DNA from: Pseudomonas sp. TH31
Lineage (GTDB): Bacteria > Pseudomonadota > Gammaproteobacteria > Pseudomonadales > Pseudomonadaceae
Direction of reading: 5' to 3'
Length of the DNA: 44,290 nt
Assembly: GCF_016650815.1 (NCBI RefSeq)
Contig: NZ_JAEKEZ010000003.1
Coordinates: forward strand, 1 to 44,290
Numbering within the stretch: position 1 is the stretch's first letter; every line of letters starts with the position of its first letter. The notes below the pieces were generated by a model, which saw only the letters and a program-made list of their open reading frames with translations, was not told the DNA's origin and ran no database searches. Made by a program: the position numbers and the translations under genes. Positions 5,359 through 42,738 of the stretch are shown here, one piece after another.

Positions 5359-5405
5359 ACGGATTGCTGTTTTTTGCCCCAACAATAGTGGATAAGAATA
5401 TGTAA

Positions 5406-10560: not shown

Positions 10561-11445
10561 TTAAAGTTGACCCACAGTGTCGAGGAAATTCTTTTCCATG
10601 CGCGCAGCGTCAGGCGTTATGCCAGTAAACAGTTCAAAACACTTCACCGACTGGAACACGTTCATTGCGCCGCCACCCAGCGTACGGCAACCCAAGGCCC
10701 GGGCGGTTCTCAACAGTTCGGTTTCAATGGGAAAGTACACCACGTCGGCAACCCACAAATCCGCGCGCAGGAACTCGATTGGCACAGGCATACCCGGAAG
10801 TTTTACCATACCGATAGGTGTGGTGTTAACAAGGCCGTCGGTGCGGCTCAGGGATCCTTCAAGATCGAGACCAAACACGGCACGGCCATCGCCGAAGCTC
10901 GTATTAAGATTATTGACCAGCGCCATGCCCCGCTCTTCCTCAATATCAAAAATGCTCAACTGCTGAACGCCCTGTTGCAGCAATCCGTAAGCCACTGCCG
11001 AACCCGCACCACCCGCGCCCATTTGCACGACGCGCTCACGCTTGACCCCTTCCAATCCCCGCTTGAAACCTTCGGCGAAGCCTAAACAATCGGTGTTGTA
11101 ACCGATGGTTTTTCCATCCTTGATGACTACCGTGTTCACTGCGCCAATACTGCGTGCTTCGTCGGACAACTCATCGAGCAGCGGCAGTACTGTCTGTTTG
11201 CACGGGAACGTAATATTAAGTCCGTTGAACCCCATGCGCTTGGCAGAATCCATCAGCGCCGGCAGTGCGCTGGCATCCAGACCCAATTGGTCCAGATCAA
11301 TCAATTTGTATAAGTAGACCAGGTTCTGCGCAGCGCCTTCGCGCATATGCAAGGTCGGGCTCATGGACGACTGAAGTGCCGCACCGATTAAACCGATCAA
11401 CACGTTCGGCGCTACTGGATGCTGGGCTGATGAGGAGGTGGTCAT
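10561..11445 (-). CDS. AroE-type quinate/shikimate dehydrogenase, probably NAD-dependent
   Basis: 294 residues, the full length of the shikimate dehydrogenase family. The substrate site shows SSMSPTLH (about 26-33), the catalytic Lys in NITFPCKQTV (Lys83) and NTDCLGF (about 117-123). The nucleotide site is GAGGAGSAV (about 143-151), followed by an acidic residue at the end of the next strand (FDIEEER, Asp167). That replaces the basic NRT motif of NADP-dependent AroE and favours NAD, as in catabolic quinate dehydrogenases. An AAGGA site lies 8 bases before the ATG. It sits between a GntR gene and an exporter on the same strand. A catabolic role in quinate/shikimate oxidation is the best reading; a second AroE lies at 41918-42738. 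Confidence 0.85.
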   Translation of the reverse strand: MTTSSSAQHPVAPNVLIGLIGAALQSSMSPTLHMREGAAQNLVYLYKLIDLDQLGLDASALPALMDSAKRMGFNGLNITFPCKQTVLPLLDELSDEARSIGAVNTVVIKDGKTIGYNTDCLGFAEGFKRGLEGVKRERVVQMGAGGAGSAVAYGLLQQGVQQLSIFDIEEERGMALVNNLNTSFGDGRAVFGLDLEGSLSRTDGLVNTTPIGMVKLPGMPVPIEFLRADLWVADVVYFPIETELLRTARALGCRTLGGGAMNVFQSVKCFELFTGITPDAARMEKNFLDTVGQL

Positions 11446-15190: not shown

Positions 15191-15241
15191 CGTTGATTCC
15201 TTGGAGAGGCTATTCACAGGCGGTTTTATATCTCATGACCA

Positions 15242-16680: not shown

Positions 16681-16707
16681 GAGGGGATGCTCGTTTCGAA
16701 AATGAGG

Positions 16708-17655: not shown

Positions 17656-17697
17656 ACAACGTTCTCCACGGCTTTTTGTTGGCTGGCGGGCAAATGC

Positions 17698-18462: not shown

Positions 18463-18510
18463 GAAATGTCCTCAACCGCGAGTACAACCCGCGGGATATG
18501 AATAACGGAG

Positions 18511-19905: not shown

Positions 19906-19951
19906 TCGTCATTCCTACAACTCAATTTTTAATTTGATCGGAATGCGAACA

Positions 19952-19972
19952 TTTGTTTCTATTCTGAACAAA
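19952..19972. promoter_or_regulatory. candidate IclR operator between divergent operons
   Basis: TTTGTTT, a 7-base spacer and GAACAAA form an inverted repeat (6 of 7 pairs) in the 151-base region between the MHS operon and the kinase gene. Its place between two divergent transcription units, one of which encodes an IclR protein, makes it a reasonable operator. No other copy is seen in the window. Confidence 0.35.
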
Positions 19973-20056
19973 AGTATTGACCGCCACTCCCAAGGTGTCA
20001 ACATGTGTATGACCCGATCGGAACCACGAACCCAAAACAACAATGAGGAACTGCTC

Positions 20057-23868: not shown

Positions 23869-25266
23869 TCAGGCGGTTTCAACCCCACTCAACGCTCTTG
23901 AGCGAGCCTCTTCATAGCTCTGCTTGGATACTGGCCGAGCATCGACAGCCCCCAAGTCCTGCATCGGGACCCGATAAGTTTCCGGTGCACAGTAGGCGGC
24001 GAAAGCTGAGATACACGTCACACCCAAAGTGATTGAACCGATGACCAGAGGGATATTCTCAGTGCCTGGCGGGGCCGCCAGTGTGAAAACAGCGGGCAGC
24101 ATGGCGGTAAACAAGGTACCGACGTTTTGCGCGATCGCCATGGCCGAACACCGATAACGGGATGGGAACTGTTCCGGATAGAAGCTTGGGAAGATGGCGT
24201 TGTAGCCTTGGTAGACGATGCCCCACATCAGCATGGACATGAGAAACGCCATCGGCAGATTATGAATGCTGATCGCATACAGGTAACCAAACGAGAGCAA
24301 CCCGGACCCCAAAGCACCACCGATAATCATCGGTCGCCGGCCAATTTTGTCGGACAGATTACCCACGAAAGGAATAATCAAGACCGCGACGATGTTGCCG
24401 AAAACCGGAATCCACAAGTAAACGCTTTTATCAAACCCGACACCGTAGACCGGCTGCACCGCATAGACCGCACCGAACACCGTAGTGACAACTGGAATAA
24501 CGTTCATCAGTGCTATACCGACGACGATCAGCATACTTTTCCAGCTGTAACGGAAGGCCTCAGAGATAGGCGAACGGGTGATCTTGTTTTGTGCCTCGAC
24601 ATCAATAAACACCGGGGTCTCACTCACGCCACGGCGGATGAAATACCCGGCGATCAGCACACCGGCACTCATCAGGAACGGTATACGCCAGCCCCATGAG
24701 TTGAAGTCCTCAGCAGACATGAAATAGGCCAGAGGCAGGAAGACTGCGGCGGCAAGTACTTGCCCGAATTGGACGCCTTGCAAGGTGAAACTTGCAAAGT
24801 ACCCTCGTCGCCCGAATGGCGCATGCTCGAGAATCATCGAACTGGCACCCGAGATCTCCCCCGCCACTGCGAAGCCCTGCACCAGACGGAGCAACACCAG
24901 AGCGATCGGAGCCCAAATCCCGACCTGATTGTAGGTGGGCAACAAGCCAACACCCATGGTCGCGATGCCCATCAGGAACATACACAGCAACAGCACGGTT
25001 TTTCGACCGCGGGTATCGCCCCAGTGACCAAGGAAAAATGCACCGACTGGTCGCGCCAGATAACCGACACCGTACGTCGCCAGCGAGAGCGCAATGGCAA
25101 CCTTAGGATCGGTCGAGGGGAAAAACAACTGAGGAAAAATCAACGCTGCCGCTTGGGCATAGATGAAAAAATCGTAGTACTCCAATGCAGAACCAATCCA
25201 GCCGCTGGCGGCCGCTTTCTTCGATTGCGTTGTGCTATTGGGCTCTTGGACCGTGGAATTACTCAT
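23869..25266 (-). CDS. MHS-family MFS transporter 2, ShiA-like
   Basis: 465 residues from the ATG at 25266, with GGTG 7 bases upstream. Helix 1 carries SGWIGSALEYYDFFIYAQAA, motif A is GHWGDTRGRKTVL, and the repeat copy is GNLSDKIGRRPMI. The family includes the shikimate permease ShiA and dicarboxylate carriers. It is downstream of the variant dehydroquinase (82-base gap) and upstream of the porin, all on one strand. Together with the Gfo/Idh-type enzyme at the head of the operon this suggests import of quinate, shikimate or a related cyclic acid. The substrate is inference from context. Confidence 0.85.
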   Translation of the reverse strand: MSNSTVQEPNSTTQSKKAAASGWIGSALEYYDFFIYAQAAALIFPQLFFPSTDPKVAIALSLATYGVGYLARPVGAFFLGHWGDTRGRKTVLLLCMFLMGIATMGVGLLPTYNQVGIWAPIALVLLRLVQGFAVAGEISGASSMILEHAPFGRRGYFASFTLQGVQFGQVLAAAVFLPLAYFMSAEDFNSWGWRIPFLMSAGVLIAGYFIRRGVSETPVFIDVEAQNKITRSPISEAFRYSWKSMLIVVGIALMNVIPVVTTVFGAVYAVQPVYGVGFDKSVYLWIPVFGNIVAVLIIPFVGNLSDKIGRRPMIIGGALGSGLLSFGYLYAISIHNLPMAFLMSMLMWGIVYQGYNAIFPSFYPEQFPSRYRCSAMAIAQNVGTLFTAMLPAVFTLAAPPGTENIPLVIGSITLGVTCISAFAAYCAPETYRVPMQDLGAVDARPVSKQSYEEARSRALSGVETA

Positions 25267-25348
25267 TGTAATCACCGTTATTATTGTTATCGGATACAGA
25301 GTACTAGCGACCCTTCAAAGCAGTCGCCAATAAGCTATTTCGTTGATT

Positions 25349-25792
25349 TCAAGCCTTGGCTTTTGCTGCGCTTACACCTGCTCGTAAACCGAGCAAATAG
25401 CTGTCTGCACCAAAGCCACAGATTTGCCCTGTCACGATCTGGCCAAATACCGAGTGATGACGGAACTCCTCGCGGGCATGGATATTGGACATATGGATCT
25501 CGACCACTGGCACCGTAAGGATCGCCAATGCGTCACGGATGCCGTAACTGTAATGAGTCCAGGCACCTGCGTTGATAAGTACTGCATCCACACCATCGAA
25601 ATAGCCCTGGTGAATGCGCTCGCACATTTCACCCTCACTATTGGTCTGAAAACTTTCAACCGTGACGCCCAACTCTTCACCCAGCGAGCGCAAGCTGGCG
25701 TCAATTTCGTTCAAGGTGATTGTTCCGTATTGCTTCGGATCACGCTTGCCGAACATGTTGTGATTTACACCGTGGAGCATCAAGACTTTCAT
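25349..25792 (-). CDS. aroQ: type II 3-dehydroquinate dehydratase, variant loop
   Basis: 147 residues, the family's usual length. Catalytic features are present: Arg17 and Tyr22 in GKRDPKQYGT, the Asn in INAGAWTHYS, His100 in VEIHMSNIHAREEF, and Arg111 with HHS. The N-terminal signature differs from the usual GPNLNLLG and reads GVNHNMFG, keeping both Asn. The enzyme removes water from 3-dehydroquinate to give 3-dehydroshikimate, cytoplasmic. It starts 14 bases after the Gfo/Idh-type gene, so it is clearly co-transcribed. A paralogue with the same variant loop lies at 41415-41864. The catabolic context separates it from the housekeeping AroQ. Confidence 0.85.
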   Translation of the reverse strand: MKVLMLHGVNHNMFGKRDPKQYGTITLNEIDASLRSLGEELGVTVESFQTNSEGEMCERIHQGYFDGVDAVLINAGAWTHYSYGIRDALAILTVPVVEIHMSNIHAREEFRHHSVFGQIVTGQICGFGADSYLLGLRAGVSAAKAKA

Positions 25793-25805: not shown

Positions 25806-26858
25806 TCAACTCAGATTGACTTCGATGACGCGCCCGGTCTTTGCAGCCCGGACAATGGCGTCGGTGATTTCCAGGTTAAGCAGTCCATCGCGGGCGCTGA
25901 CCAATGGCTGAGCCTCGCCCCTGACTACGGCGCCGAAATGCTCCATCTGATGCATGATCGGGTCTTGCCGGATCATGCCGACAACGCCGACTTCAAATGG
26001 CTTCCACCAAGAGCGTTCCTCAGACCGCGGATAGGTTTTCAAACGCATGGTTGGAATTGAAAGACTGCCGTCGGTCCCGGAGACCACGTAGCAGTCCTCA
26101 TCTTCGTGGGTGGGATAGGCCGTGTTTTCCTGGGAGGTTTGCTCCCAGCTACGCGGTGAGGCGGCGGTGTCGGACAACATGAATGTGCCCAACGCCCCAT
26201 TCGCGAATCGCAGGTTGATCGCAACGGTGTCTTCGACCGGGAACTCTCGAACTGCATGGGAAGCGAAAGCCTGAACGGCGACGATTTCCCCACAAAGCAT
26301 CCGCAGGTTATGCACCTCGTGAATCATGTTGAGGAGGATGGGCCCTGCCCCAACTTCTCGACGCCAAGGTGCATCCACGTAGTAGTGATCAGGTTTGACG
26401 AATAGCGCACTGCCCATCACTGAAACAAGCCGCCCCAGCACACCGCTTTTAATCACCTCGCGTGCTTTGGCCATGATCGGACTATGTGCACGGTGATGAC
26501 CGATGAGAATTCGAGCGCCCTTCTCATCAGCCATCTGCACCAGCGCACGCCCTTCTTCTACCGTCGGAGCAATCGGCTTCTCCAGAAGCATGTCCAAGCC
26601 GGCGCTCATGCACAGCTCAGCATGAGCGACGTGCAGTTGATTAGGTGTAGCGAGTACCACTGCGTCAGGACGATCTTTTTCAATCATCTCTTCCAGTGAG
26701 GCGTACAGCGCAACACCAGCCTGCGCGGCAAGCACCTGGGCTGCGGGTGACGGGTCGATGACAGCGGCGAGTTGGCATGTAGGGCTTTGCAGCAATGCCG
26801 CCATATGCGCCTGACCGATGTAGCCAGCGCCGGCTACCGCAATTCGAGTCTTGATCAT
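25806..26858 (-). CDS. Gfo/Idh/MocA-family oxidoreductase
   Basis: 350 residues from an ATG at 26858 (MIKTRIAVAGAGYIG). An upstream in-frame ATG at 26888 would place ten residues before the Rossmann strand and has no clear ribosome binding site; the chosen start has none either. The nucleotide fold shows GAGYIGQAH and VIDPS, the catalytic-domain start is EKPIA (93-97), and the active-site region is GAGPILLNMIHEVHNLR (His180, His183). Family members oxidise inositols, sugars, cyclic hydroxy-acids or, in LigC, a hydroxymuconic semialdehyde. It heads the minus-strand operon with AroQ and faces the meta-cleavage operon across three GntR-type sites. Its substrate is therefore either quinate-like or a ring-cleavage semialdehyde. 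Confidence 0.8.
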   Translation of the reverse strand: MIKTRIAVAGAGYIGQAHMAALLQSPTCQLAAVIDPSPAAQVLAAQAGVALYASLEEMIEKDRPDAVVLATPNQLHVAHAELCMSAGLDMLLEKPIAPTVEEGRALVQMADEKGARILIGHHRAHSPIMAKAREVIKSGVLGRLVSVMGSALFVKPDHYYVDAPWRREVGAGPILLNMIHEVHNLRMLCGEIVAVQAFASHAVREFPVEDTVAINLRFANGALGTFMLSDTAASPRSWEQTSQENTAYPTHEDEDCYVVSGTDGSLSIPTMRLKTYPRSEERSWWKPFEVGVVGMIRQDPIMHQMEHFGAVVRGEAQPLVSARDGLLNLEITDAIVRAAKTGRVIEVNLS

Positions 26859-27015
26859 GATGGCGAGCACTCGATGCAGAGGGCCCAAGGAAGGATGTTC
26901 ATAGCGCTACCCGTAGTTAATTGTATTTGTCGGGATTCATTCAATCGCTGCTTTGCATACAGCGCCGCGAGATGAAAGGTAAGCAGGACCAATAGACCTG
27001 TCAACGAACATTTCG

Positions 27016-27034
27016 ATTTTTGCATGCAAAAAAT
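27016..27034. promoter_or_regulatory. candidate GntR operator 3
   Basis: ATTTTTGCATGCAAAAAAT, an almost perfect palindrome centred on TGCATGCA (27021-27028). It lies 158 bases upstream of the Gfo/Idh-type start and is the site nearest to that minus-strand promoter. Confidence 0.6.
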
Positions 27035-27118
27035 AATAGACTGAATCAAAAATCTCGAAAAATCCCAATTAAATCAGCAATAAACTCGAAATATGGATCC
27101 GATTATTTTTTCTTATGA

Positions 27119-27136
27119 AATTTTGCATGCATTTTC
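27119..27136. promoter_or_regulatory. candidate GntR operator 4
   Basis: AATTTTGCATGCATTTTC, core TGCATGCA at 27124-27131. It abuts the -35 box (27137) of the meta-cleavage operon promoter, so a bound repressor would overlap polymerase. Confidence 0.55.
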
Positions 27137-27165
27137 TTGACGCTATCGAAGAGAAAGCTTAGGGT
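27137..27165 (+). promoter_or_regulatory. sigma70-like promoter of the meta-cleavage operon
   Basis: TTGACG (27137-27142), a 17-base spacer and TAGGGT (27160-27165). Transcription would begin near 27172, between operators 4 and 5. The first coding sequence begins at 27221, leaving about 50 bases of leader. Confidence 0.45.
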
Positions 27166-27175
27166 TTGATCAATC

Positions 27176-27190
27176 AATTTGCATGCAAAA
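27176..27190. promoter_or_regulatory. candidate GntR operator 5
   Basis: AATTTGCATGCAAAA, core TGCATGCA at 27180-27187, just after the predicted transcription start. With operator 4 it brackets the promoter, the classical arrangement for repression. The cores of operators 4 and 5 are 56 bases apart. Confidence 0.55.
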
Positions 27191-27220: not shown

Positions 27221-27672
27221 ATGTCGAAAGCTCCCGTCGATCTCAGCGCGATTACCCGGTCGGCAGGCCTGGATCCCGCGCTTCAGAAACACTCATTGGA
27301 AACCTTCGGACCGGCCTACAGCGATCTGCTGGGTTACGTTCCGCCACGCATTCAGGCGCGTTTCGGTACAACAGGTGTGCTCGACCCCGAACTGGTCAAG
27401 CTGCAAGAAGCCATGCGCAGTCACGCAATGGATACGCCGCATCTGGATCCGAAAATGGTCCAGATCATTCTGTTCGGGATGCTGCTGATGGATGGCAACG
27501 ATGCGGCCGAAACCCATTGCCTGGCCGCTCGCCGTTGCGGCGCCAGCTGGGAAGAATTGCAAGCCACTATCAGCCTCTGTTTCCTGTTCCGGGGCTGCCA
27601 GCGGCAAACCGTGGCGCCGACCTTCTGGTCCGTGTCGCTGCTCGTGAAGAGCCAGTTGTCTACCCAACCTGA
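27221..27672 (+). pseudogene. carboxymuconolactone decarboxylase-family protein, one-base frameshift
   Basis: The start at 27221 follows AGGA by 9 bases. The protein reads through MDGNDAAETHCLAARRCGAS and WEELQATISLCFLFRG. A base is then missing at the GGGG run 27591-27594. Restored, the C-terminus becomes [20 protein letters not shown] to a TGA at 27672, about 150 residues, just before the ribosome binding site of the next gene. As written, the frame instead runs on over that gene's start. CMD-family proteins include 4-carboxymuconolactone decarboxylase and AhpD peroxidases. This one lacks the AhpD CxxC pair and has Glu97, His99 and Cys100. As first gene of a meta-cleavage operon it might decarboxylate or isomerise a carboxylated intermediate. 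Confidence 0.7.
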
Positions 27673-27683
27673 GGAGCGTAGCC

Positions 27684-28487
27684 ATGAACAATTCGAATGT
27701 GCAGGCTGCGGCTGACTTGCTTGACCAGGCAGCTCAAAGCGGTGAATGGATAACGCCTCTGCGTGATATCCAACCCGCATTTAGCATCGAAGATGCTTAT
27801 GCGATTCAACAGATCAACACTGATCGTCAGTTGGCCAAAGGGCGACGCATCGTCGGCCGAAAAATCGGCCTGACGTCGAAAGTGGTACAGAAGCAACTGG
27901 GCGTGGATCAGCCTGATTTCGGCGCCCTGTTCGATGACATGGGTTATGGCAGTGGTGAAGTGATTGCCTGGGGCTCTTTGCATCAACCCAAGGTTGAAGC
28001 AGAAATCGCCTTTGTCCTCAAAAGCAATCTGGACATGCCAAACCCTGGCTTGGTCGATGTGTTCAATGCCATCGACTACGCCTTGCCCGCGATTGAAATA
28101 GTCGGCAGCCGCATCGACAAGTGGAACATCCGCATTGTCGACACCGTCGCCGACAACGCCTCTTCGGGTGCCTACGTGTTGGGCGCCACTCCCCGGAGCG
28201 TCAAGGACATCAACCTCGACCTGTGCGGCATGGTCATGGAACGTCGTGGCGAGCCGGTCTCCACCGGGGTCGGTAAAGCCTGCCTTGGTAACCCGTTAAA
28301 CGCAGTGGTATGGCTGGCACGAAAAATGGTCGAAGTGGGCCAGCCGTTGCGCGCGGGTGATTTGGTGCTGTCTGGCGCCCTTGGGCCGATGGTCGAAGTA
28401 AAACCAGGCGATATCGTCGAGGCACGCATCAACGGTCTGGGCTCGGTCACCGCCGTGTTTGGCACTGCACAAGAGGTATCAGCATGA
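27684..28487 (+). CDS. 2-hydroxypenta-2,4-dienoate hydratase (MhpD/DmpE family)
   Basis: 267 residues. The family signature is seen as [31 protein letters not shown] (metal-binding Glu-x-Glu), [25 protein letters not shown] and [20 protein letters not shown]. The enzyme adds water to 2-hydroxypenta-2,4-dienoate to give 4-hydroxy-2-oxovalerate, with a divalent metal. It could also act as the vinylpyruvate-forming partner in complex with the next gene product, as DmpE and DmpH do. A GAGGAG ribosome binding site lies 8 bases upstream, and the stop overlaps the next start (ATGA). Confidence 0.88.
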
Positions 28488-29251
28488 GCAACATCGCAGA
28501 ATTCGCCGCGCGCCTCGACGAGGCCGCTCGCACCGCAACAGCCACCCAACAGATCGATCCCGAGTCGGTGATGAGCCTGGAACAGGCCTACCAAATCCAG
28601 GAAGCCAACATTGCTCATCGCGTCGAACGCGGGGAGAAACTGGTCGGCGTGAAGATGGGTTTTACCAGCCGCGCCAAGATGATTCAGATGGGTATCGACG
28701 ACGTGATCTGGGGCCGCCTGACCAGTGATATGCGGGTCGAGGAAGGTACAACGCTGAAACTGTCCGATTACGTCCACCCGCGGGTCGAGCCTGAAATTGC
28801 TTTCCTGCTCAAGGCCCCCTTGGCTGGCGACGTGAGTGCCAGCGAAGCGCTGGCAGCGGTCGAGGCGGTGGCCCCCGCTCTGGAGATCATTGATTCGCGT
28901 TACAAAGACTTCAAGTTCTCACTGCCTGACGTGATTGCCGACAACGCCTCGTCGTCAGGATTCGTGATCGGCAACTGGCATGCTCCTGACACTGATCTGA
29001 GCAACCTGGGCATGGTCATGAGTTTCGACGGCAAGGTTCAACACGTTGGCTCCAGTGCGGCGATTCTTGGCAATCCGGTGCGCGCACTGGTGGCGGCTGC
29101 ACGCTTGGCCGCTGAAGCAGGCATCCCGCTGCAGGCTGGCTCCATCGTCATGGCCGGCGCCGCTACCGCGGCCGAGTGGCTGCTACCGGGCACCTACGTT
29201 CGCCTGGAAATGCAGAACTTGGGTTCTATCGGTTTCCACGTTCAGGAGTAA
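28484..29251 (+). CDS. 4-oxalocrotonate decarboxylase (DmpH/PraC type)
   Basis: 255 residues of the same fold as the hydratase before it. The decarboxylase branch is suggested by [57 protein letters not shown] and [13 protein letters not shown]. The enzyme decarboxylates 2-oxohex-3-enedioate to 2-hydroxypenta-2,4-dienoate and normally forms a complex with the hydratase. The four-base overlap with the hydratase fits co-assembly. Hydratase and decarboxylase are close relatives, so the substrate split between the two genes rests on motif resemblance and gene order. Confidence 0.82.
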
Positions 29252-29254
29252 GTC

Positions 29255-29458
29255 ATGCCTATCGCCATCATCAACATCATCGAAGGCCGCAGCGACGAGA
29301 AGAAGCAGGCGTTGATCGCCAGCGTCTCCCAAGCCATCGCGCAAAGCCTGGATGCTCCGCTGGAAAGCGTTCGCGTCCTGGTTCAGGAATACCCGGACAA
29401 CCTGTGGGCCGCCGGTGGCGAAACTATCCGCGAGCGACGCAGCAAGGCGAGCCAATAG
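29255..29458 (+). CDS. 4-oxalocrotonate tautomerase
   Basis: 67 residues with the catalytic N-terminal Pro exposed after Met removal (MPIAIINIIEGRSDEKKQAL). Arg11 and Arg39 match the two substrate-binding arginines of 4-OT; Phe50 is replaced by Trp. The usual function is ketonisation of 2-hydroxymuconate to 2-oxohex-3-enedioate, the substrate of the decarboxylase encoded just upstream. It starts 3 bases after that gene. Its presence implies that the ring-cleavage product reaches the dicarboxylate level in this pathway. Confidence 0.88.
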   Translation: MPIAIINIIEGRSDEKKQALIASVSQAIAQSLDAPLESVRVLVQEYPDNLWAAGGETIRERRSKASQ

Positions 29459-29503
29459 CTACGATCCCGACGCGGCAACGCACAGCACAAGAAGGACAAT
29501 AAG

Positions 29504-30445
29504 ATGAGCAAGCCTGTAAAAGTCGCCATCATTGGTTCCGGCAACATCGGCACCGATTTGATGATCAAAATCCTGCGTCATGGCAAGCACCTGGAAATGG
29601 GTGCCATGGTGGGTATCGACCCGGCCTCCGATGGCTTGGCCCGCGCCGAGCGCATGGGCGTCGCAACTACCGCGGGGGGCATTGAAGGCTTGCTGGCGAT
29701 GGAAGGCTTCAAGGACATCAGAATCGTGTTCGACGCCACTTCCGCCGGCGCCCATGCCCACCACAATGCCTTGCTTCAACCCCACGGCATCAAGGTCATC
29801 GACCTGACGCCCGCAGCCATCGGCCCCTACGTGATTCCAGCGATCAACCTGGATTCGGAGCTCGATGCCAGCAACCTGAATATGGTCACCTGCGGCGGTC
29901 AAGCCACGATTCCGATCGTCGCTGCGATATCGCGCGTAGCCAAGGTTCACTATGGAGAAATCGTTGCCTCGATCTCCAGCAAGTCGGCAGGTCCGGGGAC
30001 TCGAGCCAATATCGACGAGTTCACCGAAACCACCACCGCCGCCATCGAGAAACTCGGTGGTGCCACCCGCGGCAAGGCGATCATTGTACTTAACCCGGCC
30101 GAGCCGCCGCTAATCATGCGCGACACTGTATTTGTGCTGTCCGAATTGGCTGATCAGGATGAAATCGAACGCTCGATTCTCGACATGGTGTCGAGCGTGC
30201 AGAGCTACGTGCCGGGTTATCGCCTCAAACAAAGCGTGCAGTTCGAAGTGATCCCGCCTGAAGCGCCGGTCAATGTCCCGGGTCTGGGCTACCTGAGCGG
30301 CCTGAAAACCTCGGTGTTCCTTGAAGTGGAAGGCGCAGCGCATTACCTGCCCGCCTACGCCGGCAACCTGGACATCATGACGTCGGCCGCCATGGCGTGT
30401 GCCGAACGCATTGCCGCCACCCGCCTGAACGCAGTCGAGGCCTGA
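29504..30445 (+). CDS. acylating acetaldehyde dehydrogenase (MhpF/DmpF)
   Basis: 313 residues, the family's standard length. The nucleotide site is [14 protein letters not shown], the catalytic Cys is Cys130 in [13 protein letters not shown], and the typical [20 protein letters not shown] and [18 protein letters not shown] are present. It converts acetaldehyde, NAD and CoA to acetyl-CoA and works as a channelled complex with the aldolase encoded 3 bases downstream. GAAGGA lies about 10 bases before the ATG. Confidence 0.93.
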
Positions 30446-30448
30446 CGC

Positions 30449-31462
30449 ATGGACATCAAGAAAAAGCTCTACATTTCCGACGTCACCCTGCGCGACGGCA
30501 GCCATGCCATCCGCCACCAGTATTCGATCAAGAATGTTCAGGACATTGCTCGCGCACTGGACAAGGCAAAAGTCGACGCCATCGAAGTCGCACACGGCGA
30601 CGGTTTGCAAGGTTCGAGCTTCAACTATGGTTTTTCAGCGCACTCGGATCTGGAATACATCGAAGCCGTTGCGGACGTCATAAGCCACGCCAAAATCACC
30701 ACGCTGCTGTTGCCCGGTATCGGTACGGTTCACGACCTCAAGGCGGCCTACAACGCTGGCGCCCGCGTCGTTCGAGTCGCCACTCACTGCACGGAAGCAG
30801 ACGTGTCCCGCCAGCATATCGAGTACGCTCGCGAACTGGGCATGGATACCGTCGGCTTCCTGATGATGAGCCATATGCTCGCACCGGAAGAACTGGCTAA
30901 ACAGGCGAAGCTGATGGAGAGCTATGGCGCCACCTGCGTGTACATGGCCGACTCTGGCGGCGCGATGAACATGCAGGACATTCGCGAGCGCTTCCGCGCG
31001 TTCAAGGCTGTGCTTAAGGCTGAAACTGAAACCGGCATGCACGCGCACCACAACCTGTCGCTGGGTGTCGCCAACTCGATCACTGCGGTGGAAGAAGGTT
31101 GTGACCGCATTGATGCCAGCCTTGCCGGTATGGGTGCCGGTGCGGGCAACGCCCCACTGGAAGTCTTTATCGCTGCAGCCGAGCGCCTCGGATGGAACCA
31201 CGGTACGGACCTCTACACCCTGATGGACGCCGCCGATGACATCGTCCGTCCCTTGCAGGATCGCCCGGTACGGGTTGATCGCGAAAGCCTGGCGCTGGGA
31301 TATGCCGGGGTCTATTCAAGCTTCCTGCGACACGCTGAAGTCGCAGCCGCCAAATACGGCCTCAAGACTGTCGATATCCTCGTTGAACTGGGCAAGCGCC
31401 GCATGGTTGGGGGGCAGGAAGACATGATCGTCGACGTGGCTCTGGACCTGCTTCGTCGTTGA
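30449..31462 (+). CDS. 4-hydroxy-2-oxovalerate aldolase (MhpE/DmpG)
   Basis: 337 residues of the DRE-TIM class. The metal/catalytic motif is [14 protein letters not shown]. Further family marks are [40 protein letters not shown] (His ligands), [17 protein letters not shown] and a C-terminal [17 protein letters not shown] region that binds the dehydrogenase. It splits 4-hydroxy-2-oxovalerate into pyruvate and acetaldehyde, passing the latter to the preceding enzyme. With it the operon ends in central metabolites. Confidence 0.93.
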
Positions 31463-31493
31463 ACTTGAACAATAAAAAAGGTGAGTTGAATCC

Positions 31494-32522
31494 ATGAACA
31501 AAACCAGCAAGTTTCATCCTGAACCTCTTTATGACGTCTCGAACCTCGGTCATGTCGAGCTCAATACGCCTGACCTGGCCGCCAGCGTGCGCTTCTTCAC
31601 TGAAGTTTACGGCCTGGATCTGGTCACTACCCAGGGCGACTCGGCTTACCTGCGAGCGTGGGGCGACCACGATCTCACCTCGCTGAAACTGACCCAGGCT
31701 CGACAAGCAGGCGCCGCGCACATTGGCTGGCGCGTCATGAGCCCGCAGGCACTGGAGCGTCGTGTCGCGGCACTGAAAGCCTACGGTGTTGAAGGAAAAT
31801 GGATTGATGGCGACGTCGGTCATGGCGCTGCCTACAGCTTTATCGCACCGAGCGGGCACCGTATGGAGGTCTATTACGAGGCCGAAAAGTATGTGCCGAC
31901 CGCGGACAAGAAGCCGTACCTGCCCAACCAGCCGCAAAAATTCAGCGGCCGCGGCGTGGCGGCTGCACGCATCGATCACATCAACATTCTGACTCAGGAT
32001 GTGGTCAAGACGCGCGAATTCGCCGACCAGACCATGGGCTTCAAATTGCGCGAGCATTTGATCCCGGGCGGCCAAGGCGAAGAAGTCGGTGCCTGGATGA
32101 GCCTGATGAACAAGGCCCATGACTTGGCCATCACCAAGGAGCCAAGCCCGACTGCCAGCGGTCGACTCCATCACTTGGCCTATGCCGTTGAAAATCGTGA
32201 AGACGTATTGCGCGCTGCAGATATCTTCATGGAGAACGACGTCCACATCGAGTTCGGCCCGGCCAAGCATTCGCGTACCCAAGGTTTCTTTCTGTACGTG
32301 TACGAACCGGGCGGCAACCGCATTGAAGTCTTCTCCGGCGGCATTCACATCTTCACTCCCGATTGGGAACCTGTGAAGTGGGGCACCGAAGTCAAAGGCC
32401 GCTCCACCGCGTGGGGCCTTGGCGTACCGGAGAGTTTCCACAAGTACGCGACACCCGATGTGCAGGTGCCAGAGGCAACCCCCGCTGCCAAGGCTGCTGC
32501 GATGGCTGCGTTGAGCGAGTGA
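31494..32522 (+). CDS. extradiol (catechol 2,3-) dioxygenase, type I
   Basis: 342 residues with two vicinal-oxygen-chelate repeats. The first (NLGHVELNTPDLAASVRFFT) is structural. The second carries the iron ligands His162 in RIDHINILTQD, His226/227 in RLHHLAYAV and Glu278 in GGNRIEVFSGG. The C-terminus TPDWEPVKWGTE resembles PheB-type catechol 2,3-dioxygenases. It opens a catechol next to the hydroxyls. Whether the real substrate is catechol, protocatechuate (2,3-cleavage) or a trihydroxybenzene cannot be read from sequence. It is the last enzyme gene of the operon and is followed by a strong hairpin. Confidence 0.87.
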   Translation: MNKTSKFHPEPLYDVSNLGHVELNTPDLAASVRFFTEVYGLDLVTTQGDSAYLRAWGDHDLTSLKLTQARQAGAAHIGWRVMSPQALERRVAALKAYGVEGKWIDGDVGHGAAYSFIAPSGHRMEVYYEAEKYVPTADKKPYLPNQPQKFSGRGVAAARIDHINILTQDVVKTREFADQTMGFKLREHLIPGGQGEEVGAWMSLMNKAHDLAITKEPSPTASGRLHHLAYAVENREDVLRAADIFMENDVHIEFGPAKHSRTQGFFLYVYEPGGNRIEVFSGGIHIFTPDWEPVKWGTEVKGRSTAWGLGVPESFHKYATPDVQVPEATPAAKAAAMAALSE

Positions 32523-32565: not shown

Positions 32566-32635
32566 GCGGATGATAGGGCGTATCGAGACGGCAATGTTTG
32601 CCGTCTCTCGAGTGATTGGGTCAGAGGCCTTTGCA

Positions 32636-33361
32636 GTGAACGAGATGTTGATGGAAGAGAACCTGCACGCGCAGGAAGACAGCGCAACTACCCATGCCAC
32701 CTCCCTGGTCAAGCGTCTGCGTATGGCGATCATGACCGGTGAGTTGGCCCCGGGTAGCAAGCTGCGCCTGGATGCACTGCGCGAAAAGCTGGGTTTGACC
32801 ATCAGTCGCAGCCCACTGCGCGAGGCCCTTTCCCGGCTGGGTGCTGAAGGCCTTGTCCTCATCGAGGACAACCGCGGCTATCGGGTTATCCCGGTTTCGG
32901 AAGCAAACCTCCAGGAGATTGCGAAGCTGCGGGTGCACTCCGAAAGCCTGGCGTTACGCGAAGCGATTAGTAAGGGCGATCAAGCCTGGCTCGACGGTGT
33001 ATGCCAGGCCGAAGCCGCCCTTCGCGAAATCAAGCGCAGCGACCAGGCCGTCGCCGGTCGCCAGGAAGCCTGGGAAAATGCTCATCGTGACTTTCATCTG
33101 AAGTTGCTTGAAGGCTGCGACATGCCGCTACTGCTCAATCATTGCAACACGCTGCACGACCTGAACGATCGTTACCGTCGCATGTTCCTTGCCAAGAACC
33201 CTTTTGACCGGGATGTGAACGGCGAACATGCGGCCATCGTTGCTGCCACCAAGGAACGTAACGCCGACCTGGCATGCGCCCTTTTGGCCCAGCATATCCA
33301 GCGCACCACGCAGAACATCTGCCGGAGTCTGGTCGCTCAAAATCTCCAGACACCTGGTTGA
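32636..33361 (+). CDS. GntR-family (FCD) regulator, paralogue 2
   Basis: 241 residues from a GTG at 32636. The start was chosen by alignment with paralogue 1, where the same VN-x-x-LM context follows a strong GGAGG site; here AGAGG lies 8 bases upstream. The wHTH domain (TSLVKRLRMAIMTGELAPGS, SRSPLREALSRLGAEGLVLI) differs from paralogue 1 at only two or three positions over about 65 residues. The FCD domain (RLEREI-type region to QHIQRTTQNICRSL) is more divergent, suggesting a shared operator but different effectors. It lies between the dioxygenase and the quiC-like gene and probably controls the operators at 27016-27190. Confidence 0.87.
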   Translation: MNEMLMEENLHAQEDSATTHATSLVKRLRMAIMTGELAPGSKLRLDALREKLGLTISRSPLREALSRLGAEGLVLIEDNRGYRVIPVSEANLQEIAKLRVHSESLALREAISKGDQAWLDGVCQAEAALREIKRSDQAVAGRQEAWENAHRDFHLKLLEGCDMPLLLNHCNTLHDLNDRYRRMFLAKNPFDRDVNGEHAAIVAATKERNADLACALLAQHIQRTTQNICRSLVAQNLQTPG

Positions 33362-33440: not shown

Positions 33441-34949
33441 ATGCGCCATTCAATCGCAACAATGGTTCTGTCCGGTAGCCTGCCAGAAAAAATGAAAGCC
33501 GCAGCCCATGCCGGTTTCGACGCCATTGAGTTATTCGAAAACGACCTGATTCAATGCGACCTCAGCCTTGCCGAAATACGCGAACATGCGTCGCAATTGA
33601 ACCTGAGGCTGGACATCTATCAGCCCCTGCGTGATTTCGAAGGCGTATCGGCCGCGCAGCTGGCACGCAACCTCGATCGAGCGGAATACAAATTCGACGT
33701 CATGCAAGAACTCGGCATCGACTTGATGGGGGTCTGCTCAAACGCGCAAGCCGATGCACTGGGTGATCGCCAATTGATCGCTGACCAGTTGGCTGAACTT
33801 GCACAACGTGCAGCTCGGCGGCAACTGCGAATCGGCTTCGAATCGTTGTCATGGGGCACTCACTGCAATCGCTGGAGCCATGCCTGGGAGGCGGTGCAAC
33901 GCGCCGATCAGCACAATCTCGGACTGATTCTGGACAGCTACCATACGCTTGCACTGCGCGATGACTACAGCGCCATCAGTGAAATCCCCGGTGAGCGGAT
34001 CTTCTACTTTCAGCTGTCCGATGCCCCGTTCGAAGTCGGTTCGCCTCCCCTCTATACCCGTCCATTGCGAACCCTGCCCGGCCTCGGTCAATTAGACATG
34101 GTCGGCTTTACCGATACCGTTTTACAAACCGGCTACCAAGGTCCTTTATCGCTGGAAATATTCAGCGACGAATACCGCGGCGCTCCAGCAGAGTCGACTG
34201 CACGTGGCGCCAAGGCCTCTCTCCTATGGCTAGAGGAACGTGTGCAAGAGCGGCGCCTGGCTCGCGGTGAACCCTCCTCGCCAACTCTCAAAGCACCGGA
34301 GCCTTCGCGTGAATTGTCTCCTTACTCGTTAATCAGCGAATTCCCTGAGGCGAACGAGTTGCAACATGTCCTGGATTTGATTGGACCATGGAGCACGGAG
34401 GCAGTAGCGCAGGCGGTTCCGGCCGGTGAATTGGAAACCTTCAGCACCGAATACCGCAGACGCTTCGCCATGCAGCGCCAAACACCGATCCTCAAGCACG
34501 ATCCCGAGGGTGTGATACGTGGCCGGACCCTCTTCAGCGATGTCTGCGCCATCGAGCTGGAAACCTCCATTCACGATACCACGCTGGTAGCAAACGCCAG
34601 CAAGGACCGCCGCTTTACCCGCCTGACCATTGCCGTCCCGGACCTACAGAAAGCGCTAATGGCCATTGGCGGCGACAGTCAGCCACCACTGGTTCTGTCG
34701 GCTCATTACTACGACGACCTGCGCGCCCGCTTCGCCTTGAGCGAGGATAAAACCAACAGCTTGCGCAAACTGAATGCGGCCTATGACCGGCAAGGTGATA
34801 GCGAGCTCTTACAAGCCTTCGTTCCTGTCGGTACAGATGGATTTTGCCTGCACGTGGTTGAGCGTCGACCAGGGTATCCATCCCAGTCATGGGACATGGC
34901 CAACGCTTACGTGGTGAATGCGGCGCTGAAGGCCCGCCTGTCTAAATAA
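33441..34949 (+). CDS. quiC: 3-dehydroshikimate dehydratase, two-domain QuiC type
   Basis: 502 residues from an ATG with GGAG 5 bases upstream. The N-terminal TIM barrel (1-280) has the metal ligands of bacterial QuiC1-type enzymes at the expected places: Glu134 (IGFESLSWG), Asp165 with His168 (LILDSYHTL), Gln191 (FYFQLSDAP) and Glu239 (LSLEIFSDE). It converts 3-dehydroshikimate to protocatechuate. The C-terminal part resembles half of a 4-hydroxyphenylpyruvate dioxygenase domain (YYDDLRARFAL, ELLQAFVPVG, VERRPGY), but the iron-binding Glu before the VQR-like motif is His (CLHVVERR). Known two-domain QuiC proteins are longer, about 630 residues, so this is a shortened version. Confidence 0.88.
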   Translation: MRHSIATMVLSGSLPEKMKAAAHAGFDAIELFENDLIQCDLSLAEIREHASQLNLRLDIYQPLRDFEGVSAAQLARNLDRAEYKFDVMQELGIDLMGVCSNAQADALGDRQLIADQLAELAQRAARRQLRIGFESLSWGTHCNRWSHAWEAVQRADQHNLGLILDSYHTLALRDDYSAISEIPGERIFYFQLSDAPFEVGSPPLYTRPLRTLPGLGQLDMVGFTDTVLQTGYQGPLSLEIFSDEYRGAPAESTARGAKASLLWLEERVQERRLARGEPSSPTLKAPEPSRELSPYSLISEFPEANELQHVLDLIGPWSTEAVAQAVPAGELETFSTEYRRRFAMQRQTPILKHDPEGVIRGRTLFSDVCAIELETSIHDTTLVANASKDRRFTRLTIAVPDLQKALMAIGGDSQPPLVLSAHYYDDLRARFALSEDKTNSLRKLNAAYDRQGDSELLQAFVPVGTDGFCLHVVERRPGYPSQSWDMANAYVVNAALKARLSK

Positions 34950-36906: not shown

Positions 36907-37083
36907 CAGCTATTTTCAGACTTCCACTGAGTACATCGTCTTGGGCCGTATTGTCAGCGACGATGCACAGACCTTGAAAAGTCCCCCCTGCGACTGTTGT
37001 CCCGGAAACAGCTCCCAAGGCTGTTGCCTTCACTACCCTTAACCCTCCCCACAAACGTTCATGCGTCAGTAGGATCATGCAAC

Positions 37084-39505
37084 ATGACTAAGTCTCGACC
37101 TTCGGCATCCGTCAGTCGTTGGCCCATCTGGGTCGTCGCCTTTGGCGTGCTGGTATTTGGATTACTCTTCGCGGCAGGTGGTGGTTACCTCGCCACGCTT
37201 GGTGGCAGCTGGTACTTCCTACTCGCCGGTTTTGGTTTGATCGTATCTGCCGTACTGCTCTTCAAGCAGCGTCTACAGGGTGCTTGGCTGTTCGCGGCGG
37301 TGATGGTGCTTACCGTGATTTGGGCGCTGGCCGATGTCGGGCTGAACTTCTGGCCACTGATCTCTCGCTTGTTCGCCTTGGGCGTGCTGAGCCTGTTGGT
37401 CGCGTTGGTCTACCCGCCCCTGCGCAAGGCCAATAGCCTGGCCAGCGGTCGCAGTGGCTACGCTCTGAGCGGTGTGCTGGCAATCGCCATGGTTGCAGGT
37501 GGAGCCGGTATGTTCGTACCCCATGACTCTGTCTCGCCGACCGGTGACGGCCCAGGCCTGACAAAGGTCGACCCTGCCAAGGCCCAGAAAAACTGGGAAC
37601 ACTACGGTAACGACGAAGGTGGCGGCCGCTTCGCCGCGCTGGACCAAATCAACCGTAGCAACGTCTCGAAGCTGGTGCCGGCATGGACCTACCACACCGG
37701 GGACATCGCGATCAGCGACGGCAATGGCGCCGAAGATCAGATGACTCCGTTGCAGGTTGGCGACAAGGTGTTCATCTGCACCCCGCACAACAACCTCATC
37801 GCCCTGGATGCCGACACCGGTAAACAGCTGTGGAAAAATGAGATAAACGCCAAGACAGGTGTTTGGCAACGTTGCCGCGGTGTCGCCTACTTCGACGCTA
37901 CCGCCGCGGTCGCCCAGCTTGCCGACGGCAGCACACCTGTCAAGCCCGTGTCGGTACCGGCCGGCGCCAATTGCCAGCGCCGTCTGCTGACCAACACCAT
38001 CGATGCGCGCCTGATCGCAGTGGACGCGGACACAGGGGAGTTCTGCCAGGGCTTCGGTAACAATGGCCAGGTTGATCTGAAAGCCGGTCTGGGCAATGTC
38101 CCTGACTCCTATTACCAGCTGTCATCGGCACCGCTGATGGCCGGGACCACCGTGGTCGTAGGCGGCCGGGTCGCCGACAACGTCCAGACCGACATGCCAG
38201 GTGGCGTGATCCGTGGTTTCGACGTCGTCACCGGCGAGATGCGCTGGGCATTCGACCCGGGAAACCCCGAAGACAAGCAGGCTCCGGCTGCCGGCAGCAC
38301 GTACGTGCGCAGCACGCCCAACAGCTGGGCACCGATGTCCTACGACCCGGCGATGAACACCGTGTTCTTGCCAATGGGCAGTTCGTCCACCGACATCTAC
38401 GGTGTGGAACGTACCGCACTGAACCACAAGTACGGCGCTTCCGTTCTTGCACTGAACGCAACCACTGGCGAAGAAAAGTGGGTCTACCAAACCGTCCACA
38501 ACGACCTGTGGGACTTCGACCTGCCCATGCAGCCAAGCCTGATCGACTTCACCAAAGCTGACGGCAGCAAGGTGCCCGCCGTTGTGATCGGCACCAAAGC
38601 CGGTCAGATCTTCGTGCTTGACCGCGCCACCGGTAAACCGCTGACCAACGTGGAAGAGGTTCCGGTCAAAGCGTCGAATATCCCGAACGAACCTTACTCG
38701 CTGACTCAGCCGAAATCGGTGGGCATGCCAGAGATCGGTGCGCAGACGCTGACCGAGTCGGACATGTGGGGGCGACGCCGTTCGATCAACTGCTCTGCCG
38801 TATCTCGTTCAAGAAAATGCGTTACGACGGGCTGTACACCGCACCAGGCACCGATATCTCGCTGAGCTTCCCGGTTCGCTGGGAGGGATGAACTGGGGCA
38901 GTATCTCGACTGACCCGGTACACGGTTTTATCTTCGTCAACGACATGCGTCTGGGCCTGTGGATTCAGATGATTCCAGCGAAGAAAGATGCCAAGGCCTC
39001 TTCCGGTGGTGAAGCACTGAACACCGGCATGGGAGCGGTACCGCTCAAAGGCACCCCGTATGCAGTGAACAAGAACCGCTTCCTGTCTGTCGCCGGTATC
39101 CCTTGCCAGGCACCACCCTTTGGCACACTGACCGCGATCGACATGAAAACCCAGAAAGTCGCGTGGCAAGTGCCGGTTGGCACCGTTCAGGACACTGGCC
39201 CAATGGGTATCAAGATGCATTTGCCTTTGCCGATCGGCATGCCGACGCTGGGTGGTACGCTCTCCACCCAGGGCGGCCTGGTGTTCATCGCCGGTACACA
39301 GGACTACTACCTGCGCGCCTTCAACTCCGCCAACGGAGAAGAGGCCTGGAAAGCCCGGCTGCCCGTGGGCAGCCAGGGTGGCCCGATGACGTTTGTGTCG
39401 CCGAAAACAGGCAAGCAGTACATTGTCATCACCGCGGGTGGTGCGCGTCAGTCGGCCGATCGCGGCGATTATGTGATCGCTTACGCGCTGCCTGATAGCA
39501 AGTAA
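37084..39505 (+). pseudogene. quiA: membrane PQQ quinate/shikimate dehydrogenase, two one-base frameshifts
   Basis: The start is an ATG at 37084 with AGGAT 9 bases upstream. Residues 1-150 form about five membrane helices (WVVAFGVLVFGLLFAAGGGY and following), then GNDEGGGRFAALDQINRSNV begins the periplasmic PQQ propeller, with VFICTPHNNLIALDADTGKQ and VYQTVHNDLWDFDLPMQPSL. The frame breaks at the G5 run 38768-38772 and again at GG 38873-38874; each lacks one G. Restored, the protein is 807 residues (MWGATPFDQLLCRISFKKMR, then FPGSLGGMNWG), the normal length. It oxidises quinate or shikimate in the periplasm and reduces ubiquinone. Sequencing error is likely. Confidence 0.8.
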
Positions 39506-40558: not shown

Positions 40559-40592
40559 GTTGTTCCCTCGTTAACGCTCTCGGGCGCTGGCC

Positions 40593-41414: not shown

Positions 41415-41864
41415 CTAGGCTGCCTTGAGGTCCTGGACCGCGGCGATGGCGGCACGCAGGGCGAGTAGATAACTGTTGACCCCGAAACCGCAGATCTGTC
41501 CTCGCACCACTTCGGCGAACACCGAGTGATGCCGAAACGCTTCGCGCGCATGAATGTTGGCCATGTGCAGTTCGATCACCGGCATAGTGAGAATGGCCAA
41601 TGCGTCGCGAATACCATAACTGTAGTGCGTCCAGGCGCCGGCATTGATCAACACGGCGTCGACCTTGTCGGTCAGGGCTTGATGGATGCGCTCACACATC
41701 GTCCCTTCGCAGTTGGTCTGGAAGCTGTCGACGTGGACGTCGAGTTGTTGCGCCAGGGATTGAATGCTGGCGTTGATTTCAGCGAGGGTGATGGTCCCGT
41801 AGTGGACTGGGTCGCGCTTGCCGAACATGTTGTGGTTAATACCGTGGAGCATGAGAATGTTCAA
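41415..41864 (-). CDS. aroQ: type II 3-dehydroquinate dehydratase, variant loop, second copy
   Basis: 149 residues from a TTG at 41864, chosen because the protein then aligns end to end with the copy at 25349 and AGAG lies 9 bases upstream. An upstream ATG at 41981 would overlap the preceding gene. The loop reads GINHNMFGKRDPVHYGT, catalytic His is in ELHMANIHARE, and INAGAWTHYSYGIRDALAI is identical to the first copy. It dehydrates 3-dehydroquinate. The two copies are roughly 70% identical by eye, so this is an old duplication. It is preceded by aroE-like and followed by SDR genes in one operon. Confidence 0.82.
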   Translation of the reverse strand: MNILMLHGINHNMFGKRDPVHYGTITLAEINASIQSLAQQLDVHVDSFQTNCEGTMCERIHQALTDKVDAVLINAGAWTHYSYGIRDALAILTMPVIELHMANIHAREAFRHHSVFAEVVRGQICGFGVNSYLLALRAAIAAVQDLKAA

Positions 41865-41917
41865 GGCGGTCTGCTCTTGTAATTGGATTTTTGACCTTGT
41901 AACGCAATGGCTGAAAA

Positions 41918-42738
41918 CTACTTCAGCGGCACCGTCAGCTGGCGAATCACGGCAGCGGTGTCGGGCCTTACACCTTTCCACCAGGTGAAGGCTTCGGCCG
42001 CCTGCTCGGCGAACATGCCGACGCCATCAGCCAGCTGCTTGACACCAGCATCGCGGGCAAACCGCAGAAAGAGCGTAAGACCTTTGCCATACAGCAATTC
42101 ATAGGCCAGGCAACCCTCGGCAAAGACGCTCGCGGGTACCGGTGGCAGCTCGTTGTGCAGGCTGGCGGAGGTGGCATTAACCACCACATCGAACTGCTGC
42201 CCGGCGAGGTCCTGGTAACCCACCGCGAGAACATTGCCGCGGTCGCTGACCTTGGCGACCAAATCCTGCGCCTTGGATACCGTGCGATTGCAGATCACCA
42301 ACTGCGCCGGCTTTTGCTCGAGAAACGGCAACACCGCACCACGGGCAGCGCCCCCGCCCCCAGCAACAGCACACGCTTGCCGGCCAACGGGCGATTGAGG
42401 TTGTGCACCAGGTCACGCACCAGGCCAACACCGTCGAAGTTCTCGGCGATGACACGGTCGCCTTCAAACTTCATCGCATTGACCGCACCGGCCAGGCGCG
42501 CGCGTTCGGACAGTTCAGTGGCGTAGGCAAAAGCGTCGAGTTTGAACGGGGCGGTGATGTTCAGGCCACGACCGCCGTTGGCGCGGAACGTATCGATGGT
42601 CGGAACAAACTGCCCCAGCGCGCCTTCGATGGTCGTGTAATCGATCTGCAGGCCCGTCGCTTTGGCGAACATGCCCTGGATTTGCGGGGACTTGCTGTGT
42701 GAGATCGGATTGCCGATAACGGCATAGCGCTCGCTCAT
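41918..42738 (-). pseudogene. AroE-type shikimate dehydrogenase (NADP type), one-base frameshift
   Basis: The ATG at 42738 follows GGAGA by 7 bases. The N-terminal domain shows VIGNPISHSKSPQIQGMFA, the catalytic Lys in LNITAPFK and NFDGVGLVRDL. The frame breaks in a G/C run (C5 at 42351-42355 on the plus strand, one base missing). Restored, it reads LLLGAGGAARGAVLPFLEQK, then VICNRTVSKAQDL, and ends normally at 273 residues. The NRT motif indicates NADP, unlike the copy at 10561. It could be biosynthetic-type AroE recruited to a catabolic operon, reducing or oxidising shikimate/dehydroshikimate. The lesion is probably a sequencing error. Confidence 0.75.

Follow-up and report, generated by a model that had tools for sequence, protein, structure and literature searches.

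In a stretch of 44,290 nucleotides from Pseudomonas sp. TH31 (the start of contig NZ_JAEKEZ010000003.1; this whole stretch is called the window), we identified an operon of seven same-strand genes at 27221-32522 that combines a protein resembling carboxymuconolactone decarboxylase (CMD), a type I extradiol dioxygenase (EDO) and the enzymes of a lower meta-cleavage pathway. The explanation that we favour, tentatively and at somewhat less than an even chance, is that the operon degrades protocatechuate derived from quinate and shikimate, with the help of an unlinked aldehyde dehydrogenase. AroE or QuiA, together with AroQ, would lead to 3-dehydroshikimate, which QuiC would convert to protocatechuate; the CMD-like protein would decarboxylate this to catechol, and EDO would cleave catechol to 2-hydroxymuconic semialdehyde. 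An aldehyde dehydrogenase encoded elsewhere would then yield 2-hydroxymuconate, to be taken to pyruvate and acetyl-CoA by 4-oxalocrotonate tautomerase (4-OT), the DmpH-like decarboxylase, hydratase, aldolase and acetaldehyde dehydrogenase. The reaction formulae balance for all three of the ring-substrate routes considered below.

Gene content of the operon

The operon was delimited from the list of open reading frames (ORFs) and from NCBIfam and Pfam family searches of the window (Table 1). 4-OT, the aldolase and acetaldehyde dehydrogenase passed their family cut-offs, and the hydratase and the decarboxylase gave best matches that lie below the equivalog cut-offs. These matches bear out the six enzymes listed in a first-pass annotation of the sequence, which had omitted the first gene, the CMD-like one at 27221-27688. 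The presence of 4-OT and of a DmpH-like gene in the operon implies that 2-hydroxymuconate is formed. EDO passed the cut-off of the catechol 2,3-dioxygenase family, a match to a family and not a measure of activity, and the alignment shows conservation of its metal ligands and of the residues at XylE positions His199, His246 and Tyr255; the structure 9wgj is its best sequence match. The order of all seven genes is shared by locus L002 of P. mandelii and by three loci of Halomonadaceae, namely L003 and L004 (both Billgrantia) and L076.

The tentative assignment of the first gene draws on a match of 22.1 bits to the Pfam CMD family, just below the cut-off of 23, and on a CMD-fold model. No NCBIfam family, the PcaC models included, matched the window reading of this gene (the last residues of which are out of frame) at E ≤ 0.001, and the protein matches its intact homologue P0002 over residues 1-127 of 150 only. 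A passage of PMC10815724 cites a 4-carboxymuconolactone decarboxylase of Thermus oshimai JL-2 as converting protocatechuate to catechol, and we infer that the CMD-family gene found in that strain, at one place in a search of its plasmid pTHEOS01, encodes the enzyme so cited. Because protocatechuate is the reported substrate in Thermus, decarboxylation probably precedes ring cleavage, unlike in the pra route of Paenibacillus. CMD and EDO lie at opposite ends of the seven-gene set in the window, whereas the Thermus CMD gene is directly upstream of EDO.

Table 1. Features of the window, with family-model scores.
Feature	Position	Strand	Remarks
CMD-like protein, predicted hydroxybenzoate (protocatechuate) decarboxylase	27221..27688	+	First gene; frameshift near 27591 compared with intact relatives
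2-Hydroxypenta-2,4-dienoate hydratase (MhpD/DmpE-like)	27684..28487	+	NF008461 347.8 (cut-off 350); TIGR03220 286.4 (cut-off 408.8)
4-Oxalocrotonate decarboxylase-like (DmpH-like)	28484..29251	+	TIGR03218 226 bits, best family (cut-off 350.55)
4-Oxalocrotonate tautomerase (4-OT)	29255..29458	+	TIGR00013 75.4 (cut-off 56.9)
Acetaldehyde dehydrogenase (acylating)	29504..30445	+	TIGR03215 472 (cut-off 282.25)
4-Hydroxy-2-oxovalerate aldolase	30449..31462	+	TIGR03217 594 (cut-off 286)
Type I extradiol dioxygenase (EDO)	31494..32522	+	TIGR03211 (catechol_2_3) 327.6 bits (cut-off 320.2); Arg at XylE Leu248 position
Three sites TTTGCATGCAWWW, predicted GntR operators	27019..27190 (27019, 27122, 27178)	.	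Whole-genome motif search
GntR-family regulator (FCD type)	32570..33361	+	GntR gene likewise after EDO in L002, L003, L004, L076
QuiC-like, 3-dehydroshikimate dehydratase domain	33441..34949	+	NF042435 378.8 bits over N-terminal domain (whole-model cut-off 1200); C-terminal part diverged
QuiA-type pyrroloquinoline quinone (PQQ) membrane quinate/shikimate dehydrogenase	36997..39505	+	TIGR03074 712.5 (36997-38865) and 289.7 bits (38888-39505); two ORFs
Gfo/Idh/MocA oxidoreductase	25806..26888	-	Divergent from operon; may be a quinate/shikimate dehydrogenase or, as a weak candidate, a semialdehyde dehydrogenase
Type II 3-dehydroquinate dehydratase AroQ1	25349..25792	-	TIGR01088 176.5 (cut-off 169.85)
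Metabolite/H+ symporter, ShiA-like MFS	23869..25275	-	TIGR00883 343.7 (cut-off 443.45); PRK09952 shikimate transporter 247.5 (cut-off 538)
AroE/quinate-shikimate dehydrogenase paralogue	10561..11445	-	NF009201 424.7 (cut-off 235)
Type II 3-dehydroquinate dehydratase AroQ2	41415..41981	-	TIGR01088 177.9 (cut-off 169.85)

The dehydrogenase step and the ring substrate

The gap in the pathway was searched with ten queries, including XylG, XylF and the Thermus and G1084 dehydrogenases, at a threshold of E ≤ 0.01; in control loci, the dehydrogenase queries matched in 5/5 and the hydrolase queries in 3/5. No DmpC- or DmpD-type homologue was found in the window, as the first-pass annotation had stated, and none of the five operons of the window type (the window, L002, L003, L004 and L076) had a dehydrogenase or hydrolase homologue. 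That annotation had also held that DmpC, DmpD and PcaGH homologues should be looked for elsewhere in the genome. In the 7.2-Mb genome of the strain, no protein passed the DmpC cut-off (TIGR03216, 693.25); the best match scores 459.5 bits and comes from a betaine-aldehyde dehydrogenase, over the cut-off of its own family, and the reference XylG of pWW0 scores 838.4 bits. This cut-off is not a strict one, because the Thermus enzymes, at about 549 bits, fall below it. Among the other genomes carrying CMD and EDO, none of eight (one a plasmid record) had a match over the TIGR03216 cut-off, with a best score of 495.8. PcaH was found at 359.8 bits (cut-off 296.4), next to a weaker match that is probably PcaG.

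There are 37 aldehyde-dehydrogenase-like matches in the genome, some of them fragments, which makes an unlinked dehydrogenase possible; ten matches to the Thermus cluster dehydrogenase at E ≤ 1e-90 are 37-42% identical to it. Ten of the 37 were scanned by family. Four fell below the cut-off of any other function (two StyD-like, one PuuC-like and one BADH-like), and these could serve as the unlinked enzyme.

Several observations weigh against a route through catechol. The other six of the ten scanned aldehyde dehydrogenases are each above the cut-off of a family with a different role (betaine aldehyde, ExaC twice, aminobutyraldehyde twice and succinate semialdehyde), and the strict operator motif TTTGCATGCAWWW, which would mark a co-regulated dehydrogenase, was not found elsewhere in the genome. 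The CMD gene of the window is frameshifted, with a G run near 27591 one base shorter than that of P. mandelii, and CMDs of the window type depart from the Thermus CMD around the MYP and DAA..H motifs. An aldehyde dehydrogenase gene is present in 6/6 loci with other CMDs that hold at least three lower-pathway genes (L058, L060, T. oshimai, L083, L084 and L052), compared with 0/5 operons of the window type. Finally, Arg occupies the XylE Leu248 position in 9/9 members of the EDO clade of the window, which plain catechol leaves unexplained.

The contrast in dehydrogenase genes should be read with the composition of the loci in mind. The dehydrogenase is of the Thermus HpaE/DmpC-like kind in 5/6 of the loci counted (that of L058 by annotation and layout only) and not in all six, because the enzyme of Embleya L052 scores only 257.7 bits to TIGR03216. 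Loci with too few lower-pathway genes were left out of the count, namely L077, which has a true DmpC yet only a DmpH-like gene seen among the lower genes; L005, L006 and L011, in which a DmpH-like gene is the sole lower-pathway gene and no dehydrogenase matched; and L007 and L056, which have neither. The five operons of the window type probably share one origin, and the contrast therefore weighs as roughly one event.

XylE Leu248 lines the substrate pocket. The nine Arg-bearing enzymes (the window, L002, three Halomonadaceae, two Streptomyces, Embleya and Nocardioides) form a clade with a support of 1.0 in the tree, whereas 15 other EDOs, hand-chosen for the alignment, have Ile, Val, Thr or Leu at this position, and Arg in none (0/15). 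Arg here would accommodate a substrate bearing a carboxylate or one more hydroxyl group more readily than plain catechol, and it is mainly on this account that two other ring substrates, pyrogallol from gallate and protocatechuate itself, are kept in consideration.

In the first of these, a CMD-fold decarboxylase would convert gallate to pyrogallol, and the Arg-pocket EDO would cleave pyrogallol to 2-hydroxymuconate directly, so that the semialdehyde is bypassed and no dehydrogenase is needed. Gallate itself would be supplied either by an AroE- or Gfo/Idh-type enzyme that dehydrogenates 3-dehydroshikimate or by galloyl esters of quinate. Direct formation of 2-hydroxymuconate from a trihydroxybenzene had been one of the two options of the first-pass annotation. 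We consider this route unlikely, although it would account for the absence of dehydrogenase and hydrolase homologues from all five operons with 4-OT and the DmpH-like gene kept, and for the Arg of the EDO clade and the altered CMD motifs; its mass balance closes, and a DmpH-like gene adjoins CMD/EDO in Streptomyces and Embleya too. Cleavage of pyrogallol to 2-hydroxymuconate is raised as an engineering idea in the introduction of PMC12455638. A protocatechuate 3,4-dioxygenase subunit passed its cut-off in 5/5 genomes with the whole operon (PcaH itself in 5/8 of the other CMD-EDO carriers), so protocatechuate has another outlet in these strains. However, the product of QuiC is protocatechuate and not gallate, and the QuiC barrel seems intact in the alignment; the Halomonadaceae loci have no evident gallate-forming enzyme; and among the members of the Arg248 clade are actinobacterial loci in which CMD carries the MYP motif, one of them being Embleya, with an aldehyde dehydrogenase gene in its cluster.

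The second alternative, which we rate as improbable, is that EDO would open protocatechuate itself to 5-carboxy-2-hydroxymuconate-6-semialdehyde, and CMD would then decarboxylate this product or remove its formyl group as formate. If the formyl group were lost by hydrolysis, 2-hydroxymuconate would arise with no need for NAD, which would explain the gap, and this reaction balances exactly. The Arg at the Leu248 position could bind the carboxylate, many Arg residues are invariant across 46 CMDs, and the gene order at L077 is HpaD-type dioxygenase, CMD, DmpC and DmpH-like. Nevertheless, the CMD fold is not known to include a C-C hydrolase, and EDO appears to lack the Arg pair of homoprotocatechuate 2,3-dioxygenase. 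Cleavage of protocatechuate with proteins other than those of the pra pathway had been proposed in the first-pass annotation; an unrelated protein, CMD, is present as it required, but the Thermus relative is reported, in the passage of PMC10815724 mentioned above, to act on protocatechuate before cleavage. This report reduced CMD as a deformylase, an early idea, to a minor rival. PraH was also considered as a CMD homologue and set aside, as PraH is listed in an excerpt of PMC6362003 as a relative of OpaD (28% identity), which is in turn 30% identical to the ACMS decarboxylase NbaD.

The favoured route through catechol would not need an unlinked enzyme if the divergent Gfo/Idh/MocA oxidoreductase (25806-26888) were the missing dehydrogenase, acting on a hemiacetal like LigC/PmdC, which we regard as very improbable. 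LigC belongs to the Gfo/Idh/MocA proteins, the gene is divergently placed across the operator region, and among the listed structures PmdC appears as a distant relative. However, the PmdC match is of only 49.1 bits and takes rank 36 of 44, with many sugar and inositol dehydrogenases above it, and no homologue was found in L003, L004 or L076 at E ≤ 1e-8. Because the gene is collinear with those of AroQ1 and the ShiA-like transporter, a role as quinate/shikimate dehydrogenase fits better.

Regulation, neighbourhood and distribution

The motif TTTGCATGCAWWW is confined to three places in the genome, all within 200 bases 5' of the operon (5 matches counting both strands, against 1 for a reversed-pattern control), and from this placement we infer that the GntR regulator may bind these sites. 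The motif TTGCATGCA also lies 5' of CMD in L002, L003, L004 and L076; L003 and L004 carry it again near 5391, where genes resembling those of a TRAP transporter begin. With a relaxed 10-base motif and one mismatch allowed, 5 sites were found in the window, with 2.76 expected, which is not significant (17 of 100 shuffles reach 5), whereas the 3 found in L003, with 0.59 expected, are significant (1 of 100 shuffles reaches 3).

On the 3' side, the operon is followed by GntR, the QuiC-like gene, a chemoreceptor gene and QuiA; on the other side, genes for the Gfo/Idh oxidoreductase, AroQ, the ShiA-like transporter and a porin are all oriented away from it. The statement in the first-pass annotation that quinate and shikimate genes surround the operon is thus upheld by family matches on both sides, and the link recurs with the whole operon in Pseudomonas and Halomonadaceae and near CMD-EDO in Streptomyces. 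GntR, QuiC, AroQ and AroE directly follow the operon in L003, L004 and L076, and the Streptomyces loci L005 and L006 hold AroQ, ShiA-like, QuiC-like barrel, DmpH-like, CMD and EDO genes (AroE in L005). The window is 94.6% identical to P. mandelii strain 29 over 13.8 kb, with run-length differences in G and C runs at 27591, 38768 and 38873 that break the CMD and QuiA frames; the position of these breaks makes sequencing error possible. Together with the partial family-model matches of AroE2 (42295-42738) and OtnK (19721-21148), they suggest either assembly indel errors or decay of the island.

Other catabolic genes lie in the window. A distant FAH-type hydratase/decarboxylase and an SDR gene (39773-41381, minus strand) stand beside AroQ2 and AroE2, and this group is a possible second quinate/shikimate branch. 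Another set, at 14339-19905, contains IclR, SDR, Asp/Glu-racemase-family, SMP-30 lactonase-family, HpaI-type aldolase and ShiA-like transporter genes, and OtnK/OtnC four-carbon acid sugar genes (19721-21998) adjoin the quinate genes.

The locus appears to be a rare accessory one, given the low genome counts: EDO was found at E ≤ 1e-60 in 1/298 genomes of the genus (the strain's own genome only) and at E ≤ 1e-100 in 3/396 genomes of the phylum to which Streptomyces belongs (the centre genome counted), and CMD at E ≤ 1e-25 in 3/398 genomes of the phylum of the window (its own genome counted). In Bacillota, CMD was found in 5/398 genomes, with strong matches in two only, and in 0/9 genomes of EDO loci in a search run without a positive control.

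In Thermus (L058, L060 and L062), Streptomyces, Nocardioides, Embleya, L007 and L056, the CMD gene immediately precedes that of EDO. The Thermus plasmids combine this pair with IclR, the lower pathway and an aldehyde dehydrogenase (HpaE/DmpC-like where scanned). Among genes that form protocatechuate, PobA is present in L060, T. oshimai and L077, and a QuiC-like gene in T. oshimai. In L077, CMD adjoins a class III dioxygenase (best family HpaD_Fe, below cut-off) unrelated to EDO, and DmpC (876.3 bits) and PobA (671.6 bits), both over their cut-offs, and the DmpH-like gene are close by. A Thermus-like dehydrogenase is encoded in L083 and L084 (62.7% identity over 474 residues and 60.1% over 188, respectively, the latter at the end of the stretch), alongside CMD, EDO, lower-pathway genes and an HpaB-type hydroxylase. 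In L007 (2758-5911), L083 (5911-9764) and L084 (9560-15953), the HpaB-type hydroxylase genes close to CMD and EDO suggest that these lineages have another entry substrate. On a Hydrogenophaga sp. BPS33 plasmid (L059 12001-13217), a CMD of the Thermus kind adjoins IS1071, followed by an alpha/beta hydrolase, and no EDO is annotated in that stretch.

A rule that CMD accompanies any EDO at least 54% identical to that of the window was also considered (8/8, versus 0/36 at 48% or less, drawn from one EDO locus set plus L052), yet it fails for Thermus, in which EDOs of about 45-49% identity occur with CMD all the same. T. oshimai has a second EDO cluster (L061 5630-10296) with GntR, DUF6282, PIG-L and CHA-type aldolase genes. 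Tyr is found at the XylE His199 position in the EDOs of L061, L009, L010, L012 and L057, and L057 has an EDO and no CMD match.

Comparison with known systems

The operon resembles the lignoaromatic cluster of T. oshimai JL-2, reportedly described by Chakraborty et al. in 2021 (AEM 87:e01589-20), in that a CMD-family gene accompanies an EDO, annotated in Thermus as catechol 2,3-dioxygenase, with a QuiC-like gene nearby and with a tautomerase, FAH-family hydratase/decarboxylase, aldolase and acetaldehyde dehydrogenase; Thermus also has PobA. The T. oshimai cluster differs in having an HpaE/DmpC-like aldehyde dehydrogenase (549.2 bits to TIGR03216), an IclR regulator, Thr and not Arg at the Leu248 position of EDO, and a CMD that is 48% identical. 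As far as excerpts of PMC12455638 and PMC6362003 go, the pra pathway of Paenibacillus sp. JJ-1b (protocatechuate 2,3-cleavage) shares the lower pathway and the entry at protocatechuate, but it employs PraH, a relative of the OpaD/NbaD-type decarboxylases, and PraB, a dehydrogenase; the operon has no homologue of the PraB type. The catechol meta operons of the dmp/xyl type (pWW0) likewise contain EDO, 4-OT, DmpH, aldolase and acetaldehyde dehydrogenase; the window differs from them in the absence of XylG and XylF homologues and in the presence of CMD, the GntR regulator and the quinate/shikimate neighbours.

A meta route linked to quinate was not found in the openly licensed (Creative Commons, CC) literature searched. 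A recurring meta operon with no local dehydrogenase amounts to a natural experiment on the true ring substrate, and if pyrogallol were cleaved directly, the operon would represent meta cleavage without a reactive semialdehyde, with possible use in the conversion of lignin and tannin. The parts of the operon are of known kinds, and what appears new, against the literature searched, is the combination of CMD, EDO and a full lower pathway, without a local dehydrogenase, in a quinate/shikimate locus of Pseudomonas and Halomonadaceae. If the favoured route through catechol is correct, protocatechuate decarboxylation by a CMD-family protein, cited in one thermophile, would extend to quinate and shikimate catabolism in mesophilic Pseudomonas and Halomonas.

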